Source: Lactobacillus xylocopicola (GTDB taxonomy: Bacteria > Bacillota > Bacilli > Lactobacillales > Lactobacillaceae). From it: 64,000 bases of DNA. Positions 2,335-64,000 of this stretch are shown one piece after another. Every line of letters begins with the position of its first letter. The first letter of the stretch is position 1. A program made the position numbers and the translations under genes. The notes beneath the pieces are model-generated. The model was given only the letters and a program-made list of their open reading frames with translations. It had not been told where the DNA came from and made no database searches. The stretch is from positions 124,001 through 188,000 of the forward strand of contig NZ_AP026803.1 in NCBI RefSeq assembly GCF_033096005.1, given 5' to 3'.

Positions 2335-2600
2335 AAAAAGCCCTTCGCCCCTTAACTAAACAAGGACGAAAGGCTTTTTTCCGCGGTACCACCTAAATTG
2401 TCCCCTATGGGGACCAACTCATGAAGCACAATCATGCTTCACCAGCTTGATAACGTACTGGAGACGGCGCCACCTACTTTAACAATGATTTCAGTGTGCT
2501 GCTAAAAGGGTTTTTCAATAATCCAGGGTCTGCCGCCTTCCCACTATCGCCGGCTCACTTCAAGAGATAGATTATCTACTCGTCTTTTTCACTGCATTTA
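2335..2600 (-). promoter_or_regulatory. T-box leader (Asn specifier) of asnA
   Basis: Read on the minus strand, the leader has the hallmark T-box sequence AGGTGGTACCGCGG (2394-2381) followed by a long terminator hairpin (GCCTTTCGTCC ... GGGGCGAAGGGC) and a T run at about 2339-2335. In stem I, AGTAG precedes an arm ATAATC that pairs with GATTAT; the 3' side of the specifier loop then reads TGAAAAACC, placing AAC (Asn) at 2512-2510. The same offset in the other T-box of this window gives a sensible codon too. Uncharged tRNA-Asn would favour the antiterminator. The exact 5' end is estimated. Confidence 0.93.
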
Positions 2601-2685
2601 GTTTAATATTAATTTAACAAAACTATTAATTAAAAGCAAGTCTAAAATAAACGCAGCCGCACTAATCAACTAAAAATGACTTGTC

Positions 2686-24766: not shown

Positions 24767-24965
24767 AACAAAAATGCCGCGAATAAATCGCGGCTCCCTA
24801 AAATAAATCTTGTTATTTTAGCACTACCCGGCGTAAAGACGTCAGTCATTAGCTACTTGGGAAATAACCTTCGTTCGGTTATTTCTGTCCTATACATTGG
24901 CGTTTCGCAACGTTTCTGTACAGTAGCTTATGTCCGTGTAGGAGCCTCGTATATTAAATCAACGT
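24767..24965 (-). promoter_or_regulatory. M-box (Mg2+-sensing) riboswitch with terminator, upstream of mgtA
   Basis: On the minus strand the leader contains TACGAGGCTCCTACA (the conserved M-box start, near 24955-24940), then a hairpin region AAATAACCGAACGAAGGTTATTT, then GCCGGGTAGTGCTAAAA and TAGGGAGCC, all as in ykoK/M-box leaders. The expression platform is a strong terminator GCCGCGA / TCGCGGC followed by ATTTTT (about 24793-24767). High Mg2+ should allow termination. Position before a Mg2+ transporter supports the call. Confidence 0.93.
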
Positions 24966-27658: not shown

Positions 27659-27915
27659 AAAAAAGTCCTTTAGCTCTAAGAGCTAAAGGACGAATAACCG
27701 TGGTTCCACCTTTGTTCGCTATTGCCTCGCGACAATAACCTCAAGAAGTCTAGCAACTTCTACAGCGCTAACGGGCCAGCCCGTCCCCTCTTACTAACTT
27801 TCAAAGGAGATACTTCCAGATGTGATTCACTTTATTCTTCTGCCTTTTTCCATCAACCAAAGGTTCTCTGTTCTAGAATAAAATAAAGCTACTCTTCTGT
27901 TCAAAGTAGTTAATT
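27659..27915 (-). promoter_or_regulatory. T-box leader (probable His specifier) of the amino-acid ABC transporter
   Basis: Minus strand AGGTGGAACCACGG (27711-27698) is the T-box core, followed by a terminator stem GTCCTTTAGCTC / GAGCTAAAGGAC and a T run. In stem I, AGTAG precedes CTTTATT, which pairs with AATAAAG; the following specifier-loop strand reads TGAATCACA, placing CAC (His) at 27824-27822 at the same offset that gives AAC in the asnA leader. The 5' end is estimated. Confidence 0.9.
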
Positions 27916-55920: not shown

Positions 55921-55935
55921 AACAAAATTTCAACA

Positions 55936-55975
55936 CAAAAGAGCTACAATTTTAAATTGTAGCTCTTTTGTGTTG
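55936..55975. terminator. Terminator of efp
   Basis: Perfect stem CACAAAAGAGCTACAATTT / AAATTGTAGCTCTTTTGTG with a 2-base loop. Its A- and T-rich arms could act on both strands. Confidence 0.9.
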
Positions 55976-56011
55976 AGGCTGTTTAGATTTAAAAAGTTGC
56001 TTTTAACAAGA

Positions 56012-56890
56012 TTAGTAGTATTTTTTCCTAAATTTTCCTGGTGACATCCCCGTAGCTTCCTTTATCTTTTTATAAAGATGTGACGCATCAGTAAAACCAC
56101 AGGAGATAGCTATTTTTTCTAAAGGTATAGTAGGATCTTTTACTAGTAAACTTTCAGCCGCCTTAATCCGAATATTTAACAGATAAGCGTGGATGCTTAT
56201 CCCGGTATATTTTTTAAAATCTCGAGATAATTGTGAGTAACTCATTGAGCATTTTAGGGCAATGTCTCTTACCGTTATTTTTTGACTAAAATTTTGCTCC
56301 ATGTATTCTGCAGCGCTATGAATATAGCTGGGAATAGAATGAAAATCGCTAGAATAATTAGTGATTTGGTTTTCTTGGGTAACAGAAAGGTTGCAAATTA
56401 AGTTATAGGTTAGATTAGATAAGAATGGTTCATTTTTTCCATCGGAATTAGTCGATATTAACCTAAAAATTCTAGTAAATAAATTTTCGATATTTTTACG
56501 AGGAGAAAAAACGGGTAGCGCATTTTCTGTGATTTTGTTAAATATTTTTTGCATGAAGGGGCTATTAAAGTGTAAAAAATAAAACTCACTATCAGTAACC
56601 GCTTTATAAAAATTAGGCTCTTTACAATCTAGCAATACTATTTGATTTTTTGCGTGAAATTCTTGATTATGGAAGTAGAATTTCATTTCGCCTTTATATA
56701 TGTAGATATATAAAAATGAATCCATAAAATCTCTTTTTACTTCATAGGGATAGCTAACATGGTATTCGGCTCCAAACATTGGATAAAAATATATTTCATG
56801 CGCTAAATCACTAGGATTATTATAAAAAATACCCTTTTCAACTGTAACACCGGTTTCTTTTTCGGGAATAAAATCTTGATACTTATTCAT
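56012..56890 (-). CDS. AraC family transcriptional regulator
   Basis: 292 residues. An N-terminal cupin-like ligand domain (YPMFGAEYHVSYPYEVKRDFMDSFLYIYIYKGEMKFYFHNQEF) and two C-terminal HTH motifs (ITVRDIALKCSMSYSQLSRDFKKYTG and IPLEKIAISCGFTDASHLYKKIKEATG). Its start overlaps the stop of the upstream transporter gene (ATGA). It is likely to sense the sugar or cyclitol carried by that transporter and to act on the divergent promoters at 58354-58980; this is inference. Confidence 0.93.
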   Translation of the reverse strand: MNKYQDFIPEKETGVTVEKGIFYNNPSDLAHEIYFYPMFGAEYHVSYPYEVKRDFMDSFLYIYIYKGEMKFYFHNQEFHAKNQIVLLDCKEPNFYKAVTDSEFYFLHFNSPFMQKIFNKITENALPVFSPRKNIENLFTRIFRLISTNSDGKNEPFLSNLTYNLICNLSVTQENQITNYSSDFHSIPSYIHSAAEYMEQNFSQKITVRDIALKCSMSYSQLSRDFKKYTGISIHAYLLNIRIKAAESLLVKDPTIPLEKIAISCGFTDASHLYKKIKEATGMSPGKFRKKYY

Positions 56891-58353
56891 TTTATTCCTT
56901 CTCCATCATCTAATTGGTGGTGTTTTTGTGGCTCATAGCCATCTTGAAATCCTGATTGAAGTTCTTCAAGTGATTTTCCCTGGGTTTCTGGTATAAATTT
57001 AATAGCATATAATAGTGAGACAACGTTGAGAATTGTAAATACCACGAACGTTTTGCCCAGTCCAAGATGTTCAAGCAGGATGGGGAAGAGGTAGCCAACT
57101 AAGAAATTAGATAGCCATAAGAAGAATGTCGCAATTCCCATGGCCATTCCGCGAATCGCTTGTGGAAAAATTTCTGATAATAGTACCCACACTATCGGTG
57201 ATACACCGCCTTGGAAAAATATCAGGAAAATTGCCATTAATAACAGCATGACAAACGGGAAAATAAAACTTCCTTTGAGGAAAAATGATAAAACGCTAAT
57301 CGTTAACATTGTAATGGTTGTTCCACAGATGGCGGTAATGACCATTTTTCGTCGATTAACTACGCCCATTATCCGGATACTTGCAATAGTTGCGAGCGTT
57401 GAAATAATACCATTACTGATATTTGCTATTAAAGCTGCGGAATGACTAAATCCAGCATCACTTAGTACAGTAGTTCCGTAAAACATAATGATATTAATTC
57501 CAATTGCCTGCTGCATTATCCCTAAGCCGATACCAATTAGAATTAAACGACGAATCCAGGGCGTTTTTAGGTCCTTAAAAGTAACTTTTTTCTGTTTGCT
57601 ATTTGCTGTTAAAGAAACTTTTATTTGAGCAATTTCAGCTACTGCGGTCTTTTTACTATCACGTATTTTTTCTAAGTTATGCAAGGCCTGCTGGTCATTA
57701 TGTTTAGTAACTAACCATCTTGGCGATTCAGGTACCCTGTTTATTCCAATTAAGAGCAAAATTTCAGGAATTAACCCAACCGCTAGCATGTATCGCCAAA
57801 TGCCGCTATAACTGCCTAGTAATACTCCAAATAAGGCATTAATAATATAGGAAAGTAATTGCCCAACAACAATCATCAATTCATGATGATTAACAAATTT
57901 TCCTCTAATTTGTGGAGTTGATAACTCAGCCAGAAAGACAGGGCTGATAACAGACTCAGCCCCCACTGCTAATCCTAAAACAAAGCGACATAAAATCATT
58001 ACATATGCATTAGGAGCAAAAGTACAGCCAAGAGTCCCTAAAATAAAAATCCAAGCCGAGTACATTAAAATACGTTTTCGGCCAAAGTGGTCTGAAAGTT
58101 TCCCACCAATTATTGCCCCAAATGCCGCGCCTAAAGTTATCCCACTAGTGACTAGACCTTCGTCTGAAGCATTTAGGTTGAGCTGACTTGGTTTACTCAT
58201 AAAAGTCAAGGAACCATTGGTGGCTCCGGTATCGATTCCAAAAAGCAAGCCGCCTAGGGTAATTATCCAGCCATAAGTCTGTAAATTAACCATTTTTTTA
58301 TTGGTTGTAATTATGTCTTCCGATTTGGAAGTTGTATTTTGATTGTTATTCAT
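56887..58353 (-). CDS. MFS sugar/inositol transporter (IolT-like)
   Basis: 488 residues, twelve helices. Sugar porter motifs: GGLLFGIDTGATNGSL, GGKLSDHFGRKRIL, PESPRWL, and FQGGVSPIVWVLLSEIFP with a C-terminal PETQGKSLEEL. The N-terminal helix and PSQLNLNA... resemble inositol transporter IolT. It is followed by the AraC gene and faces the second transporter gene. Together with IolE in the next operon, cyclitol or sugar uptake is likely. Confidence 0.92.
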   Translation of the reverse strand: MNNNQNTTSKSEDIITTNKKMVNLQTYGWIITLGGLLFGIDTGATNGSLTFMSKPSQLNLNASDEGLVTSGITLGAAFGAIIGGKLSDHFGRKRILMYSAWIFILGTLGCTFAPNAYVMILCRFVLGLAVGAESVISPVFLAELSTPQIRGKFVNHHELMIVVGQLLSYIINALFGVLLGSYSGIWRYMLAVGLIPEILLLIGINRVPESPRWLVTKHNDQQALHNLEKIRDSKKTAVAEIAQIKVSLTANSKQKKVTFKDLKTPWIRRLILIGIGLGIMQQAIGINIIMFYGTTVLSDAGFSHSAALIANISNGIISTLATIASIRIMGVVNRRKMVITAICGTTITMLTISVLSFFLKGSFIFPFVMLLLMAIFLIFFQGGVSPIVWVLLSEIFPQAIRGMAMGIATFFLWLSNFLVGYLFPILLEHLGLGKTFVVFTILNVVSLLYAIKFIPETQGKSLEELQSGFQDGYEPQKHHQLDDGEGIK

Positions 58354-58453
58354 TTAATCACCATCTCTAATTTAAAAACAAATCAGTTCAGTGATGTAAT
58401 CATTTGAAAATAGGCTTGAGCTTAATTTATCCATTTTTTGTTTTTTTTGCAAG

Positions 58454-58468
58454 TGTACCCGCTTTCAA
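58454..58468 (-). promoter_or_regulatory. Candidate cre site for the minus-strand MFS gene
   Basis: Minus strand TTGAAAGCGGGTACA matches WTGNAANCGNWNNCW at all but one fixed position, 100 bases before the start codon. Confidence 0.6.
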
Positions 58469-58792
58469 TAAGTGGAACTTATAAGTAGGGAGCTGTGCTA
58501 TGTAAGTGTTAGATAGAACTATCTTATTTTCATAATTATTTTTCTTTTAAGCAGCAAACTTGACTAGACTGTTATTTTAACCCTTTTATTTGGATAATAA
58601 GTGATAAAAAGTACATTTATTAGCTGCAAAAATACCTTGACTTTTTAAATATCTTTTATAAAAAATAAATAACTCGGATTTATAATTTAGTTTAGGTTTT
58701 TGTATTTTTAAGATAAATATTTAAAAACCCTATTATAACAAGCATAAAGTAAAAATAACTAAAGTGTAATTACTAGCCAATAAGTTAATCTG

Positions 58793-58807
58793 ATAAAAAC
58801 GCTTGCA
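58793..58807 (+). promoter_or_regulatory. Candidate cre site for the plus-strand MFS-iolE operon
   Basis: ATAAAAACGCTTGCA matches WTGNAANCGNWNNCW with one mismatch; it lies upstream of the -35 box of the plus-strand operon. Confidence 0.6.
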
Positions 58808-58838
58808 AAAAACAAAGTCGATTTTACAATACACTTAA

Positions 58839-58852
58839 GTGATTGCAATCAC
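58839..58852. promoter_or_regulatory. Perfect palindrome, possible operator
   Basis: GTGATTGCAATCAC reads the same on both strands and lies about 70 bases upstream of the plus-strand -35 box. A dimeric regulator could bind it, though AraC proteins usually prefer direct repeats. Confidence 0.5.
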
Positions 58853-58921
58853 GAAGAAAATAGGTTTAAGAGTCTACATTAACTAGACTTTTATTATTCG
58901 TTCAAAAAATATGGTTAGCTT

Positions 58922-58950
58922 TTGTTAATATGTTGCAATAGCTCTATAGA
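58922..58950 (+). promoter_or_regulatory. Probable promoter of the MFS-iolE-flavoprotein operon
   Basis: TTGTTA (58922-58927), 17 bases, TATAGA (58945-58950); moderate matches, consistent with a regulated promoter. Confidence 0.5.
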
Positions 58951-58980
58951 ACATATTGTAGAAAAAATGGAGATTGCAAA

Positions 58981-60381
58981 ATGCAAGAAAAAAGTTATGA
59001 GAATAATCATCATGGTTATTTAGTTCTAGTTGCATGGATTGCATGTATGGGGGCGCTTTGTTTCGGCTTCGATACTGGGGTTGTAAACGGGTCGCTTGAT
59101 TTTATGGCAAAACCCGGTCAGTTAAACTTGTCAGCATTTGAACAAGGAATTGTTTCGAGTGGATTAACCTTTGGTGCAGCTTTTGGTGCAGTTTTTGGTA
59201 GTCCATTAAGCGACCGATTAGGTCGTAAAAAACTGATGATTTGGTTAGGCATACTGTTTACACTGACTGCCTTGGGCTGTGGCTTTGCACCTAATACAGC
59301 AATTTTAATCGTTTTAAGAATTATCATGGGCCTGGCAGTAGGGGCGACCTCTGCGCTAGTGCCCGTATATTTAGCAGAAATATCACCGGCGAAAGAGCGC
59401 GGTAAGTTTGTCAGTATGAATCAATTATTAATCGTTGGTGGTCAAGGCCTCTCATTTTTGATTAATGCTATTTTGGGTAATACCCTTGGTGTTCATGATG
59501 CAGCTGTATGGCGGTTGATGCTCGGTGTCACAGCTATTCCTGGAATATTGCTGTGGTTTGGAATGTATCTTGTGCCTGAGAGCCCGCAATGGTATGTCAA
59601 TAAAGGAATGTTTGGGGATGCTCTAAAAGCTCTTTACAGAGTTAGGAGTAAGGCACAAGCAGAAGCAGAAATTGATGACTTAAAGAAAAATGCTGAAGCC
59701 TTGCAGCAAGAAAATGCCGAAAAAGCTTCCTTCAGAGATTTTAAGAAACCGTGGATTTTACAAATTGTTATTACTGGTTCGCTGTTGGGGATTTTTCAAC
59801 AATTTGCCGGCATCAATTCTGTTATGTATTACGGCACCAAAATCTTAACGTCTGCTGGCTTTGGTAGCAATACATCACTGTACATGAACATTGCAAATGG
59901 TGTCTTTTCAGTAATCGGTGCTATTGTCGGCATGTATACAGTAGATAGGTTAGGTAGAAAGCCTTTACTGTTAATTGGTTACATTTTCTGTTCGATTGCT
60001 TTAATTGTTATCGCCCTGATTGGTAGTTTTGCACTACATACTTCTTGGGCCCCATTCGCAGTCCTAGTTATTTTATTGATTTACATTGTTATTGATCAGG
60101 GTACGCTCGGTCCAGTTACTTGGCTGCTCAATTCTGAAATTTTTCCGGCGCGGTATCGCGGGTTAGGTACAGGTATTACAATTTTTGTTTTATGGATGGC
60201 TAACTTCATTGTTGGCTTGCTTTTCCCAGTTATTCTTTCTGTTTTAGGCATTTCATCATTTTATATATTTGCCGTATTCTGCTTGCTTGGCGCCTGGTTT
60301 GTTAAAGTTAGAGTTCCTGAAACCAAGGGAGCATCGCTTAGTAGCATTGAAGGCTTTTTCCATGAGAGATATGACAAATAA
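58981..60381 (+). CDS. MFS sugar/inositol transporter (IolT-like), second copy
   Basis: 466 residues, twelve helices. CFGFDTGVVNGSLDFMAKPG, DRLGRKKL, PESPQWY, and PETKGASL, with an N-terminal half close to IolT-type myo-inositol:H+ symporters. It is similar to the transporter at 56887 but clearly divergent. GGAG 8 bases before the ATG. First gene of an operon with iolE 34 bp further on. Confidence 0.93.
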   Translation: MQEKSYENNHHGYLVLVAWIACMGALCFGFDTGVVNGSLDFMAKPGQLNLSAFEQGIVSSGLTFGAAFGAVFGSPLSDRLGRKKLMIWLGILFTLTALGCGFAPNTAILIVLRIIMGLAVGATSALVPVYLAEISPAKERGKFVSMNQLLIVGGQGLSFLINAILGNTLGVHDAAVWRLMLGVTAIPGILLWFGMYLVPESPQWYVNKGMFGDALKALYRVRSKAQAEAEIDDLKKNAEALQQENAEKASFRDFKKPWILQIVITGSLLGIFQQFAGINSVMYYGTKILTSAGFGSNTSLYMNIANGVFSVIGAIVGMYTVDRLGRKPLLLIGYIFCSIALIVIALIGSFALHTSWAPFAVLVILLIYIVIDQGTLGPVTWLLNSEIFPARYRGLGTGITIFVLWMANFIVGLLFPVILSVLGISSFYIFAVFCLLGAWFVKVRVPETKGASLSSIEGFFHERYDK

Positions 60382-60415
60382 AGAAATTGTAGTTAGTTAT
60401 TAAGGAGAAAATATT

Positions 60416-61339
60416 ATGTCAAAATACGATATTAATAAAAATATTAAATTAGGTATTTGTCCGATTGGTTGGCGAAATGACGATATTCCATCTATTGGTG
60501 CTGAAAATACCTTTCCGCAACTTTTAAGCGATGCTGCACTTGCAGGCTTTAAAGGTGTAGAAGTGGGTGGCTTTTTCCCTGAAGCGAATGAAATCAACTA
60601 TGAGCGAAAATTGCGCAACATAGAAATTGCTGGTCAATGGTTTAGCAGTTTTATCATTCGTGATGGAATTGACCAAGCAGCGGCAGATTTTGAGGAGCAT
60701 TGTAAAAATCTCCAGGCACTTGGTGCCCATATTGCTACTGTGTCGGAACAGACATACTCAATTCAACAAACTAGTAAAAATATTTTCAAAGACAAGCCAT
60801 ATTTTACTGATCAGGAATGGGAAGAAGTTTGTGAGGGTTTAAATAAATATGGTGAGATTGGCAAAAAATATGGTGTTAAAGTGGCATATCATCACCATCT
60901 GGGAACCGGTATCCAAACTTTTGAAGAAACGAAAAGATTAATGGATAACACTGACCCAGAAAAAGTTAATTTGGTATTTGATACTGGTCATGCTTATGTG
61001 GCAGAAGGTGATGTTATGCCAATGCTTAACGCGTTTGTTGAGCGAGTCGTGCATGTTCACTTCAAAGATGTTCGTAAAGATAAAGAAAATGATTCTAGGG
61101 CAAGAGGATTGTCATTTCAAGATTCATTCATGAATGATATGTTTACAGTGCCTGGTGATGGCAGTATTGATTTCAGACCAGTCTTTAAGACTTTAGCCGA
61201 TCATAAGTATACTGGGTGGATTATGGTGGAAGCCGAACAAGATCCCAAAAAACATAATCCTTTTGAAATGGCGGTAAAAGCACATGAATATATGGAAAAT
61301 GAATTGTTTATGCCGTACGAAAAGAAAAATTTAAACTAG
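60416..61339 (+). CDS. iolE: Inosose dehydratase IolE
   Basis: 307 residues. GICPIGWRNDDIPSIGAENT, KGVEVGGFFPE, QWFSSFIIRDGI, SEQTYSIQQTSKNIF, YHHHLGTGIQT, DTGHAYVAEGD, VHVHFKDVRKD, FTVPGDGSIDF and MVEAEQDP follow Bacillus IolE closely from end to end. It is a TIM-barrel metal-dependent dehydratase that turns 2-keto-myo-inositol into a trihydroxycyclohexane-dione. No other iol gene is in the window; instead a flavoprotein and a PEP mutase-like protein follow. AAGGAG precedes the ATG. Confidence 0.93.
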   Translation: MSKYDINKNIKLGICPIGWRNDDIPSIGAENTFPQLLSDAALAGFKGVEVGGFFPEANEINYERKLRNIEIAGQWFSSFIIRDGIDQAAADFEEHCKNLQALGAHIATVSEQTYSIQQTSKNIFKDKPYFTDQEWEEVCEGLNKYGEIGKKYGVKVAYHHHLGTGIQTFEETKRLMDNTDPEKVNLVFDTGHAYVAEGDVMPMLNAFVERVVHVHFKDVRKDKENDSRARGLSFQDSFMNDMFTVPGDGSIDFRPVFKTLADHKYTGWIMVEAEQDPKKHNPFEMAVKAHEYMENELFMPYEKKNLN

Positions 61340-61385
61340 TTTTCGTCTAAGTTCCTTTTTAAAATAAAAGAGAGGTTTTAATAAT

Positions 61386-63245
61386 ATGATTTTTGATAAG
61401 TCCATTAAATGGGATAAAGTCTATGATGTAGTAGTATTGGGATTTGGTGGTGCAGGTGCCAGTGCAGCAAGATTTGCAGCAGACAAGGGGGCTAAGGTGC
61501 TGCTAGTCGATAAGGCTCCAGAGGGGCATGAGGGTGGTAATACTAGGTATTCCGGTCAAAATGTTGGTTACACCCCAGATCCGGTGAAATTCAGAACATA
61601 CTACAAACAGCTTGCACAGGGCTTTCATATTGATAAAGATGTGGAAGATACAGTAATTAATGGCTTAGCAAATATGAAAGACTACTTTACAAAATATTTA
61701 GGGGTAAAGCCGTTTGTATTTGGAGAGCATCCTGAAGATAACCCGTTGACTCATACTGCTGACAACCAGACAACGGCCACACATCCAGAATTTACCGATT
61801 CGTCATCATCAGAATTAATGACGGTTCACAATGGTATGTTTGATTCTGCACTGTGGACTGTGTTAAGGGAGTTAGTAATAGACCGGGTAGATAATATTGA
61901 TGTTTGGTATGACTCACCAGCCGTTCATATTATTCAAGCCCCAGACAAAACTGTAGTTGGTGTTCAAATTAACCGGAAGGGCAAGATAAGGAATATTGGT
62001 GCCCGTAATGGTGTGGTTCTTTCTACCGGTGGTTTTTCTAACAGTAAGATAAAAATTCAGGATTTTATTGGTGAACATCACTTAGCCCCAGTTGGTACAC
62101 TTTATAATACCGGTGATGGTATTGATCTTGCTATTGAAGCGGGAGCTAGATTATGGCACATGACGACCTATAACTCAGCCGGAATTGTTGGCGATTTAAC
62201 CTTACCAGTTAAAGAAGGGGAGCGTAGCATTTTCCAACCAGCTGATATTGATGCCAAGGAAATGTACACCGGAAGTATTTTTGCTGTTAGTGATGATGGT
62301 ACAAGGTACTGCCGCGAAGATATTTTTAGTATTGAAGGCTGGTTTTACAATCACGGTCAATGGAGGACCCCACAGGCCCCAATTAAGCCGTATGTTATTT
62401 TTGACCAGAAGCAATATGAGCAGCTGGCCAAAATCGACCATATGCCATATCAACGTGCCTTGAAGAATTTTCTGATAAGTGCGGATAGTGTTGATGAACT
62501 AGCTAAGAAAATTGCTGTTGATCCTGAAACTTTAACAGCAACAATTGATACTTTTAATTCATATGCTGAATCTGGTAATGACCTAGACTTTCACAGGGCA
62601 ACCGCTACCCTGGCGAGATTTGATGCAACGGATACTATTTATGCTTTGCCAATGGTTCAGTCTGTTGCTCAAACTCACGGTGGCCCAAAGCGAAACGGGC
62701 AAGCAGAAATAATGGATCCATTTAATAAAGCCATTCCCCATCTATATGGAGCTGGTGAATTAGGTGGAAATATTGTCAGAATTTACCAAGGTGGAGAAAA
62801 TCTGGCAGACTGCTTAATCTTTGGTAAGGTTGCAGGTGAAAATGCTGCTGAAGAAAAAGCCGATAAATATGGTGTATTCAGCAGTGCCCCGGATGTTACT
62901 TCAGGTGCATCAGTCAAAGAAGATGCTGACTTGTTAAGCGATATGAAGAAAAAGTGCCGGGTTAAGTTAGATAAGAATCAATATTTAGGTACAAGTTCTG
63001 CCGGTATGGGTAATGAGATAGTTGTTCGTGTCACAGTAGATGATGATCAAAACATTAAGAACATTGAGGTTTTGCAAGAAAGCGAAAGCGAAGATTATGG
63101 TAAGCGTGCAATTAAAGCATTACCGAAGATAATGATTGAGAAAAACACTTATGACGTTGATGCAGTATCAGGCGCCTCCTCTTCTAGCCGGGCCATGAGA
63201 GAAGCGGTTAAAATGGCATTGGACAGTGCAAAAGAAAAAAAGTAA
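61386..63245 (+). CDS. FAD-binding flavoprotein with C-terminal FMN_bind domain
   Basis: 619 residues, cytoplasmic. FAD domain starts VVVLGFGGAGASAARFA (15-31), ends near GAGELGGNIVRIYQGG (about 456-471). The C-terminal FMN_bind domain (about 535-619) holds D592-A-V-S-G-A-S598, where Ser598 is the predicted flavinylation site. The domain order is the reverse of flavoprotein 1. In the active-site region AQTHGG keeps a His and an Arg follows in NIVRIYQGG, but the exact fumarate-reductase set is not visible. Lies 46 bp after iolE in the same operon; it may reduce an unsaturated product of cyclitol breakdown. Confidence 0.92.
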   Translation: MIFDKSIKWDKVYDVVVLGFGGAGASAARFAADKGAKVLLVDKAPEGHEGGNTRYSGQNVGYTPDPVKFRTYYKQLAQGFHIDKDVEDTVINGLANMKDYFTKYLGVKPFVFGEHPEDNPLTHTADNQTTATHPEFTDSSSSELMTVHNGMFDSALWTVLRELVIDRVDNIDVWYDSPAVHIIQAPDKTVVGVQINRKGKIRNIGARNGVVLSTGGFSNSKIKIQDFIGEHHLAPVGTLYNTGDGIDLAIEAGARLWHMTTYNSAGIVGDLTLPVKEGERSIFQPADIDAKEMYTGSIFAVSDDGTRYCREDIFSIEGWFYNHGQWRTPQAPIKPYVIFDQKQYEQLAKIDHMPYQRALKNFLISADSVDELAKKIAVDPETLTATIDTFNSYAESGNDLDFHRATATLARFDATDTIYALPMVQSVAQTHGGPKRNGQAEIMDPFNKAIPHLYGAGELGGNIVRIYQGGENLADCLIFGKVAGENAAEEKADKYGVFSSAPDVTSGASVKEDADLLSDMKKKCRVKLDKNQYLGTSSAGMGNEIVVRVTVDDDQNIKNIEVLQESESEDYGKRAIKALPKIMIEKNTYDVDAVSGASSSSRAMREAVKMALDSAKEKK

Positions 63246-63299
63246 TAAAGATTATAATGGCTAACAAATAATGTTTTGTTAGGATATCAAATTTTCTAT

Positions 63300-63370
63300 A
63301 AAACTCGTAGTTAACTTTTTTCGGAATGATAAAAAATTTACATTCAGATAGCAAGTTCTACGAGTTTTTT
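63300..63370 (+). terminator. Three-tier terminator with structured loop after flavoprotein 3
   Basis: Outer stem AACTCGTAG / CTACGAGTT followed by TTTT; continuous with it, AACTT (63313-63317) pairs with AAGTT (63353-63357), and inside GAATG pairs with CATTC. A separate 8-bp hairpin (CTAACAAA / TTTGTTAG, 63261-63282) lies just upstream. The size and layering are unusual for a plain terminator, and it could be an attenuator before the gene at 63393. Confidence 0.65.
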
Positions 63371-63392
63371 GCTAGAAATGAGGTAATAAAGG

Positions 63393-64000
63393 ATGTTAAA
63401 AGGGAAAATACCGGTTACAATTTCGGCAGATTTAATAAACAAGTTTAACCAGGATACAACTTTTTTTGTTAGCAGCAGATTATTGGCACTAATGACGCTA
63501 GGCAAAGAAAATGAAGGGCTAATAACAAGACGTGAGTACTTGCAATATTTTAATACACTGACCATTGAAACGGGAGCTAAATTAATTGCAGATGGACAGT
63601 CGGGCTTTGGTAACGAATTAAGTGTGTGGACCGCCGCAGCTGAATTAGGTCGAGCTGGAGCAAAATACTTAGTATTAAATGATCAAAAGTGGCCAGCAAT
63701 TTCCGTGGGAATTTCTGGTGCAGTTACAGAACAAGCCTTTCTTAAAAAGGTTAGGGCGGCAATTTCTGGTGGTGAAAATTATGCTTTACAAGTTATTCCT
63801 AAGTTGGAGGGCATAAGTGCATACGGCTATGAAGGGCTTGTTGAGCGGATACAGTTGTTGCTGCAACTTGGGATACAACAAGTTATAGTCTCGCGGATAA
63901 GCAAAAAGGAACTCTTAAAACTAAAAACAGAAAGATTTAAAGATCACTTGGGCATTGCATTGGATGATTCAATGCTGTCGTTATCTGAAGCAGAAGCCAT
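63393..64000 (+). CDS. PEP mutase/isocitrate lyase superfamily-like protein (partial, C-terminus outside window)
   Basis: 202 codons open to the window end, ATG at 63393 with GAGG 9 bases upstream. The centre TGAKLIADGQSGFGNELSVW and GRAGAKYLVLNDQKWP resemble the PEP mutase/isocitrate lyase core (aD.DTGFGN and iEDQ). But at the metal-binding place the sequence reads A-D67-G-Q69-S-G where D-x-D is normal, and EDQ is N97-D-Q. Thus metal or substrate binding may have changed. It could split or form a C-C or P-C bond of a pathway intermediate. Only partial, so family call is moderate. Confidence 0.65.
   Translation, partial: MLKGKIPVTISADLINKFNQDTTFFVSSRLLALMTLGKENEGLITRREYLQYFNTLTIETGAKLIADGQSGFGNELSVWTAAAELGRAGAKYLVLNDQKWPAISVGISGAVTEQAFLKKVRAAISGGENYALQVIPKLEGISAYGYEGLVERIQLLLQLGIQQVIVSRISKKELLKLKTERFKDHLGIALDDSMLSLSEAEA

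Follow-up and report, generated by a model that had tools for sequence, protein, structure and literature searches.

The iol gene set of Bacillus subtilis and Lacticaseibacillus casei comprises IolT, G, E, D, B, C, J, A, H and I. In Anaerostipes, anaerobic inositol catabolism is described as running through IolD, B, C and J. One broad genomic survey of inositol utilization counted a cluster only if it held three or more of iolB, C, D and E (PMC9430895), so that a locus like the one described here would escape it. The locus lies at the end of a stretch of 64,000 nucleotides from Lactobacillus xylocopicola (NZ_AP026803.1), hereafter the window, and continues beyond it. The genome is a single contig of 1,635,875 bases, 99.41% complete, and the window corresponds to its positions 124001-188000. 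All coordinates follow the window numbering, which is continued beyond 64000 for genes outside the window.

In a preliminary description of the segment 56012..64000, two IolT-like porters on divergent operons, an AraC gene, IolE, an FAD/FMN flavoprotein and a phosphoenolpyruvate (PEP) mutase-like gene were reported, and a cyclitol-type locus extending past the window was suggested. All six open reading frames (ORFs) were confirmed in position and in the named families by an ORF check and family profile searches, the gene content supports the cyclitol-type assignment, and the locus indeed runs approximately 7 kb past the window end, to 70962, comprising 13 genes in total (Table 1). AraC and the major facilitator superfamily (MFS) porter MFS1 are on the reverse strand, followed by MFS2, IolE, the flavoprotein, the PEP-mutase-like PM1 and PM2, MFS3, IolG, IolH and IolI1 on the forward strand, and by IolI2 and IolI3 on the reverse strand. 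Family profile searches of the locus proteins revealed no kinase. We consider a cyclitol-type substrate probable, and a route avoiding IolD is somewhat favored. The full proposal, for which the balance falls slightly short of even, is that this is a Lactobacillus-group cyclitol dissimilation locus which retains the entry half of inositol catabolism and in which a flavoprotein step and PM1/PM2-dependent C-C cleavage take the place of the other half (IolD/B/C/J).

IolE passes the equivalog cut-off of the inosose dehydratase model TIGR04379, its best matches are IolE proteins (454 bits to the IolE structure 3cny), and the motifs YHHH, DTGH, HxHxKxxR and EAEQDP are common to IolE and 9zmu. Against inositol dehydrogenases, IolG scores 229-295 bits; its top structure is "Inositol 2-dehydrogenase/D-chiro-inositol 3-dehydrogenase" from B. 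subtilis (295 bits), and two NCBIfam equivalog models score it under their cut-offs (351.7 of 540 and 182.3 of 355 bits). All four triosephosphate isomerase (TIM) barrel proteins match AP_endonuc_2, and the names IolH and IolI are used loosely: IolH scored 51.8 bits with the IolO model (cut-off 300) and 26 bits with solved IolI, and IolI1 152 bits with 2q02 and 32 bits with solved IolI. From these families, whose reactions are known, we infer that MFS1 and MFS2 would import an inositol-type cyclitol, IolG would convert this into an inosose by oxidation, TIM barrels of the IolH/IolI type might epimerize or isomerize the keto form, and IolE would remove water to give a trihydroxycyclohexane-dione or an analogue. 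The ring substrate could instead be something other than inositol, such as a relative of quinate or shikimate, or a keto-glycoside on which IolE-like lyases act. Weak matches of IolE to 2-hydroxy-3-keto-glucal hydratase (34 bits) and of IolG to DgpA (77 bits), together with a very weak match of the IolH-like protein to QuiC 3-dehydroshikimate dehydratase (19.1 of 1200 bits needed), point in that direction, as does the consumption of quinate by several members of the bee gut, as reported (PMC5726620). We regard this as unlikely, given the IolE score over the equivalog cut-off with IolE proteins as best matches and the IolG scores with inositol dehydrogenases; furthermore, the scans made yielded no locus protein above the threshold for a quinate or shikimate enzyme.

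Among the genes following the window, IolG is present 2.2 kb past its edge, a correction to the preliminary description, which had seen no iolG in its 8 kb, and no IolD is found there. Nor does a full standard iol set, the finding that the same description had named as contrary to its view, lie just outside the window: IolD, IolB-type and IolC proteins over cut-off are lacking genome-wide. The sole IolD match in the genome reaches 155.7 bits of the 715 needed, and this look-alike was rejected as SpxB pyruvate oxidase (736.9 bits, cut-off 637.85). PF04962 (KduI), which we presume to cover IolB, has no match in the window genome or in that of Lactobacillus laiwuensis, the IolB-specific NCBIfam model not having been run, and one match over cut-off in the genome of a Lactobacillus metagenome-assembled genome (MAG) that carries the same locus. 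IolC (TIGR04382) is over cut-off in none of the three locus-bearing genomes, the best score in the window genome being 87.7 bits (cut-off 300). As for the aldolase IolJ, the two class II aldolases of the genome have fructose-bisphosphate aldolase as their best models (350.4 and 268 bits, equivalog cut-off 343.05, which one of the two thus passes). By the IolD, IolB-type and IolC models the standard second half thus appears to be absent, although a strongly diverged enzyme is possible and IolA was outside the search. An ordinary iol pathway with its remaining genes elsewhere in the genome, to which the weak matches of thiamine diphosphate (ThDP)-dependent enzymes, sugar kinases and class II aldolases might have pointed, is largely refuted and hardly credible: no IolD or IolC match is over cut-off and no IolB-type match exists, the ThDP match turns out to be SpxB, both aldolases are fitted best by fructose-bisphosphate models, and the genome is one nearly complete contig.

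A PM1 profile scan of named genomes yielded 15 loci, two of which, in L. laiwuensis and the Lactobacillus MAG, represent the same locus with the same gene order. The co-location of the flavoprotein and the lyase-like genes in three species bears out their assignment to the locus. The AraC orthologue is 80% identical in the MAG and is split over two ORFs in L. laiwuensis (L060, 2557-3430), MFS1 and MFS2 are 77-81% and 90-92% identical in the two genomes, and the left flank, coaA-efp, is common to the window genome and L. laiwuensis. Some of the homologue clusters are named after Lactobacillus isolates, L. laiwuensis included, which probably come from bees.

PM1 and PM2, whose reading frames overlap by 17 bases, both belong to the isocitrate lyase/PEP mutase superfamily. 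PM1 has the superfamily fold, its window part scoring 24.5 with the Pfam model (curated cut-off 31.5), and the catalytic Lys/Cys loop was not found in any of the 22 PM1 sequences. PM2 is assigned to the superfamily by profile (Table 1) and by the KxCG loop typical of isocitrate-lyase-type lyases. In its altered form Lys121, Cys123 and Gly124 are conserved in 15/15 clusters, of which P0002-P0015 were counted by sequence alone. The equivalents of D87, E115, R158 and E188 (metal and substrate positions, PrpB numbering) are G, D, H and D in the same 15 clusters, and also in L. laiwuensis and the MAG. The four positions are canonical in 44/44 rows of relatives outside iol-type loci (L104-L134, L062-L073 and L057), which include the same genome reached twice and two rows (L105 and L116) showing no PM1; for 31 of them IolE was looked for within approximately 1.5 kb on either side. 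PM2 gave 38 matches in 34/397 family genomes, and the loci of 30 were read. Within the genus, PM2 is found in 5/75 genomes at E <= 1e-25, and three of these have the altered kind.

Two observations weigh against the proposed replacement of the second half. First, family members with IolE often have no IolD: IolE occurs in 25/397 family genomes at E <= 1e-40, and IolD over cut-off in 7 of these 25, or in 7/27 distinct genomes (29 handles) when L. laiwuensis and the MAG are included. Among the IolD-less IolE loci, the version with the flavoprotein, PM1 and PM2 is the rarer form. Second, PM1, PM2 and MFS3 are the fastest-evolving genes of the locus, with the highest nonsynonymous divergence (dN) from L. 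laiwuensis (0.299, 0.314 and 0.225); values for MFS1, IolI1, IolI2 and IolI3 are 0.134, 0.123, 0.111 and 0.164, and MFS2, IolE, the flavoprotein, IolG and IolH fall within 0.04-0.066. This divergence would suit a composite operon, in which the PM1-PM2-MFS3 block either serves an unrelated acid as a passenger module or is decaying, and is merely co-expressed with the cyclitol genes, and so would the PM1-PM2 pairs that many Lactobacillaceae carry without IolE nearby (e.g., L057, L062-L073), where one subunit lacks the catalytic loop. However, the PM2 swaps are uniform and the loop is kept, so that on the sequences compared the change is not random decay. In addition, the proportion of nonsynonymous differences (pN) in the block is far under that of synonymous ones (pS), which is near-saturated, and the MFS that usually accompanies PM1-PM2 is swapped for the unrelated MFS3 in this locus. 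A composite operon is therefore considered somewhat unlikely.

The flavoprotein displays comparable changes. Scoring of 7999 candidates gave 2190 relatives, and in the best 120 of these, split into 102 and 18, the locus clade has Ile or Val in 18/18 at a site where Arg is found in 96/102 relatives. The locus protein itself carries I316 and S218 at the sites of Arg and Glu in the relatives. The residues H365, R402, H504 and R544, the catalytic ones of Fcc3, are not conserved: in three alignments they correspond to a gap or Tyr, Ser (Ile adjoining), Ala and Tyr, and they are likewise not conserved in the paralogues sampled. The protein has an FMN_bind domain and an SGAS motif at 595-598, features that bear on a possible covalent attachment of FMN, as does the presence of an ApbE gene in the genome. 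Operon-type flavoproteins occur in 3/75 genus genomes, the same three as the altered PM2; the five rows of the locus-type clade in the genome scan include two duplicates (L. laiwuensis and MAG records). Taken together, the PM1/PM2 pair and the flavoprotein both look rebuilt.

The FAD+FMN family as a whole is present in 51/75 genus genomes, with six matches in the window genome and 11 in one genus member. The five further paralogues, two of them adjacent, are located at genome positions 884001-892000, 1078001-1085000, 1454001-1460000 and 1549001-1555000. This expansion would be expected if the locus served as an electron sink, in which the flavoprotein reduces the cyclitol after its import and dehydration, the deoxy-cyclitol leaves through MFS3, and PM1/PM2 serve another purpose with no cleavage involved. 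Lactobacilli reduce plant phenolics with vinyl-phenol-reductase-type enzymes, as reported (PMC10295242); the flavoprotein scores 104.7 bits with the vinyl phenol reductase model NF053717, whose cut-off of 600 is far higher, an ApbE gene is found elsewhere in the genome, and the locus is kinase-free, all of which would fit. Yet IolG produces NADH, so that a route with one reduction would be merely redox-neutral, the Arg common among the listed relatives is lost in the locus clade, and PM1/PM2 are retained within the locus in three species. Reduction of an inosose-derived dione by the flavoprotein, as the preliminary description envisaged, is also less obvious because that Arg is Ile/Val in the locus clade and the Fcc3 residues are not kept. 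An electron sink seems improbable to us. The likelihoods given to these rival explanations are not mutually exclusive.

Returning to the replacement of IolD/B/C/J, the co-location and the altered active sites lead us to infer that the dedicated flavoprotein, in place of the ThDP-dependent IolD, would catalyze a redox step, oxidation or reduction, on the ring ketone. The PM1/PM2 pair, one partner with the Lys/Cys loop and the other degenerate, would then break a C-C bond to yield short non-phosphorylated acids. Since the locus is without a kinase, the products would either be fed into metabolism as acids or be exported by MFS3. In its most specific form, which we hold to be doubtful, PM1/PM2 would be an acid lyase remodelled into a heteromeric isocitrate-lyase-superfamily enzyme, with an active subunit beside a degenerate one, that opens or cleaves the six-membered ring of the inosose-derived ketone after the flavoprotein step and so replaces IolD in a kinase-free cyclitol fermentation. 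If the proposed route as a whole is real, cyclitols are used by some lactobacilli, probably those of bees, through a branch not described before. The isocitrate-lyase superfamily would then also acquire a form encoded by two genes, one of them for a degenerate partner, and a substrate class new to it. As each predicted enzyme can be expressed separately, the question is directly testable.

Table 1. Genes and candidate operator of the L. xylocopicola cyclitol-type locus
Feature	Position	Strand	Support
AraC-family regulator	56012..56890	-	HTH_AraC, HTH_18, AraC_binding
MFS1, sugar-porter transporter, IolT-like	56887..58353	-	TIGR00879 332.1 bits, cut-off 237.8
14-base perfect palindrome GTGATTGCAATCAC, candidate operator	58839..58852	.	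divergent intergenic region, identical in three species
MFS2, sugar-porter transporter, IolT-like	58981..60381	+	TIGR00879 344.5 bits, cut-off 237.8
IolE, myo-inosose-2 dehydratase family	60416..61339	+	TIGR04379 348.6 bits, cut-off 290
FAD/FMN flavoprotein	61386..63245	+	FAD_binding_2 + FMN_bind
PM1, PEP-mutase-like, degenerate	63393..64094 (window end cuts at 64000)	+	isocitrate-lyase/PEP-mutase fold
PM2, second PEP-mutase-like	64078..64941	+	PF13714 118.5 bits, cut-off 31.5
MFS3	64956..66098	+	
IolG	66236..67267	+	closest solved structure an inositol dehydrogenase, 295 bits
TIM barrel "IolH"	67281..68147	+	AP_endonuc_2
TIM barrel "IolI1"	68166..69017	+	AP_endonuc_2
TIM barrel "IolI2"	69244..70092	-	AP_endonuc_2
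TIM barrel "IolI3"	70105..70962	-	AP_endonuc_2

In the 1.64 Mb genome the exact palindrome occurs only here, with one further copy that has one mismatch; a degenerate second copy was noticed near 58390. Approximately 40 bases ahead of the palindrome lies the partly conserved AAACGCTTGCAAAA, which we liken to a catabolite-responsive element (cre). A long terminator-like hairpin of 20 pairs is located at 55930-55976, between efp and the AraC gene. Elsewhere in the window, two T-box leaders and one M-box magnesium riboswitch were recognized, at 27683-27913(-), 2359-2601(-) and 24801-24965(-).

Similarly to the iol loci of B. subtilis and L. casei, the locus contains IolT-type porters, IolG, IolE and TIM barrels, but it is devoid of IolD, IolB-type and IolC proteins over cut-off, and the flavoprotein, PM1, PM2 and MFS3 stand between IolE and IolG. 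IolD is seen beside IolE in the loci of some family genomes. Related in content, too, are clusters of Lactiplantibacillus plantarum and other Lactobacillaceae that have IolE but no IolD, arranged as IolG-IolE-Gfo/Idh/MocA with two porters. They share porters and an IolE 63-67% identical, some of them also with AraC, IolG, IolH and IolI1 homologues; IolD was over cut-off in none of 17 such genomes besides the window genome. In the L. plantarum-type clusters, however, IolE mostly stands between Gfo/Idh/MocA dehydrogenases with porters (e.g., on an L. plantarum plasmid), and the stretches read contain no flavoprotein, PM1 or PM2. The IolE clusters of this type (L030-L047 and L059), mostly without IolD, carry several such dehydrogenases. 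The PM1-PM2 modules outside iol-type loci have the same arrangement of a degenerate PM1 followed by a PM2 with the Lys/Cys loop, but their metal and substrate positions are canonical, and the MFS beside them resembles an acid symporter in the cases tested. With the superfamily at large, including PrpB, oxaloacetate acetylhydrolase and petal death protein, PM2 has the fold and the KxCG loop in common, whereas its four metal and substrate positions are swapped and the loop is lost in PM1. The flavoprotein, finally, resembles Fcc3, urocanate reductase and the lactobacillus reductases in its FAD_binding_2 and FMN_bind domains and is approximately 50% identical to its lactobacillus paralogues, but it has Ile/Val at 316 where 96/102 relatives have Arg, and the Fcc3 residues are lost, as they are in the paralogues sampled.

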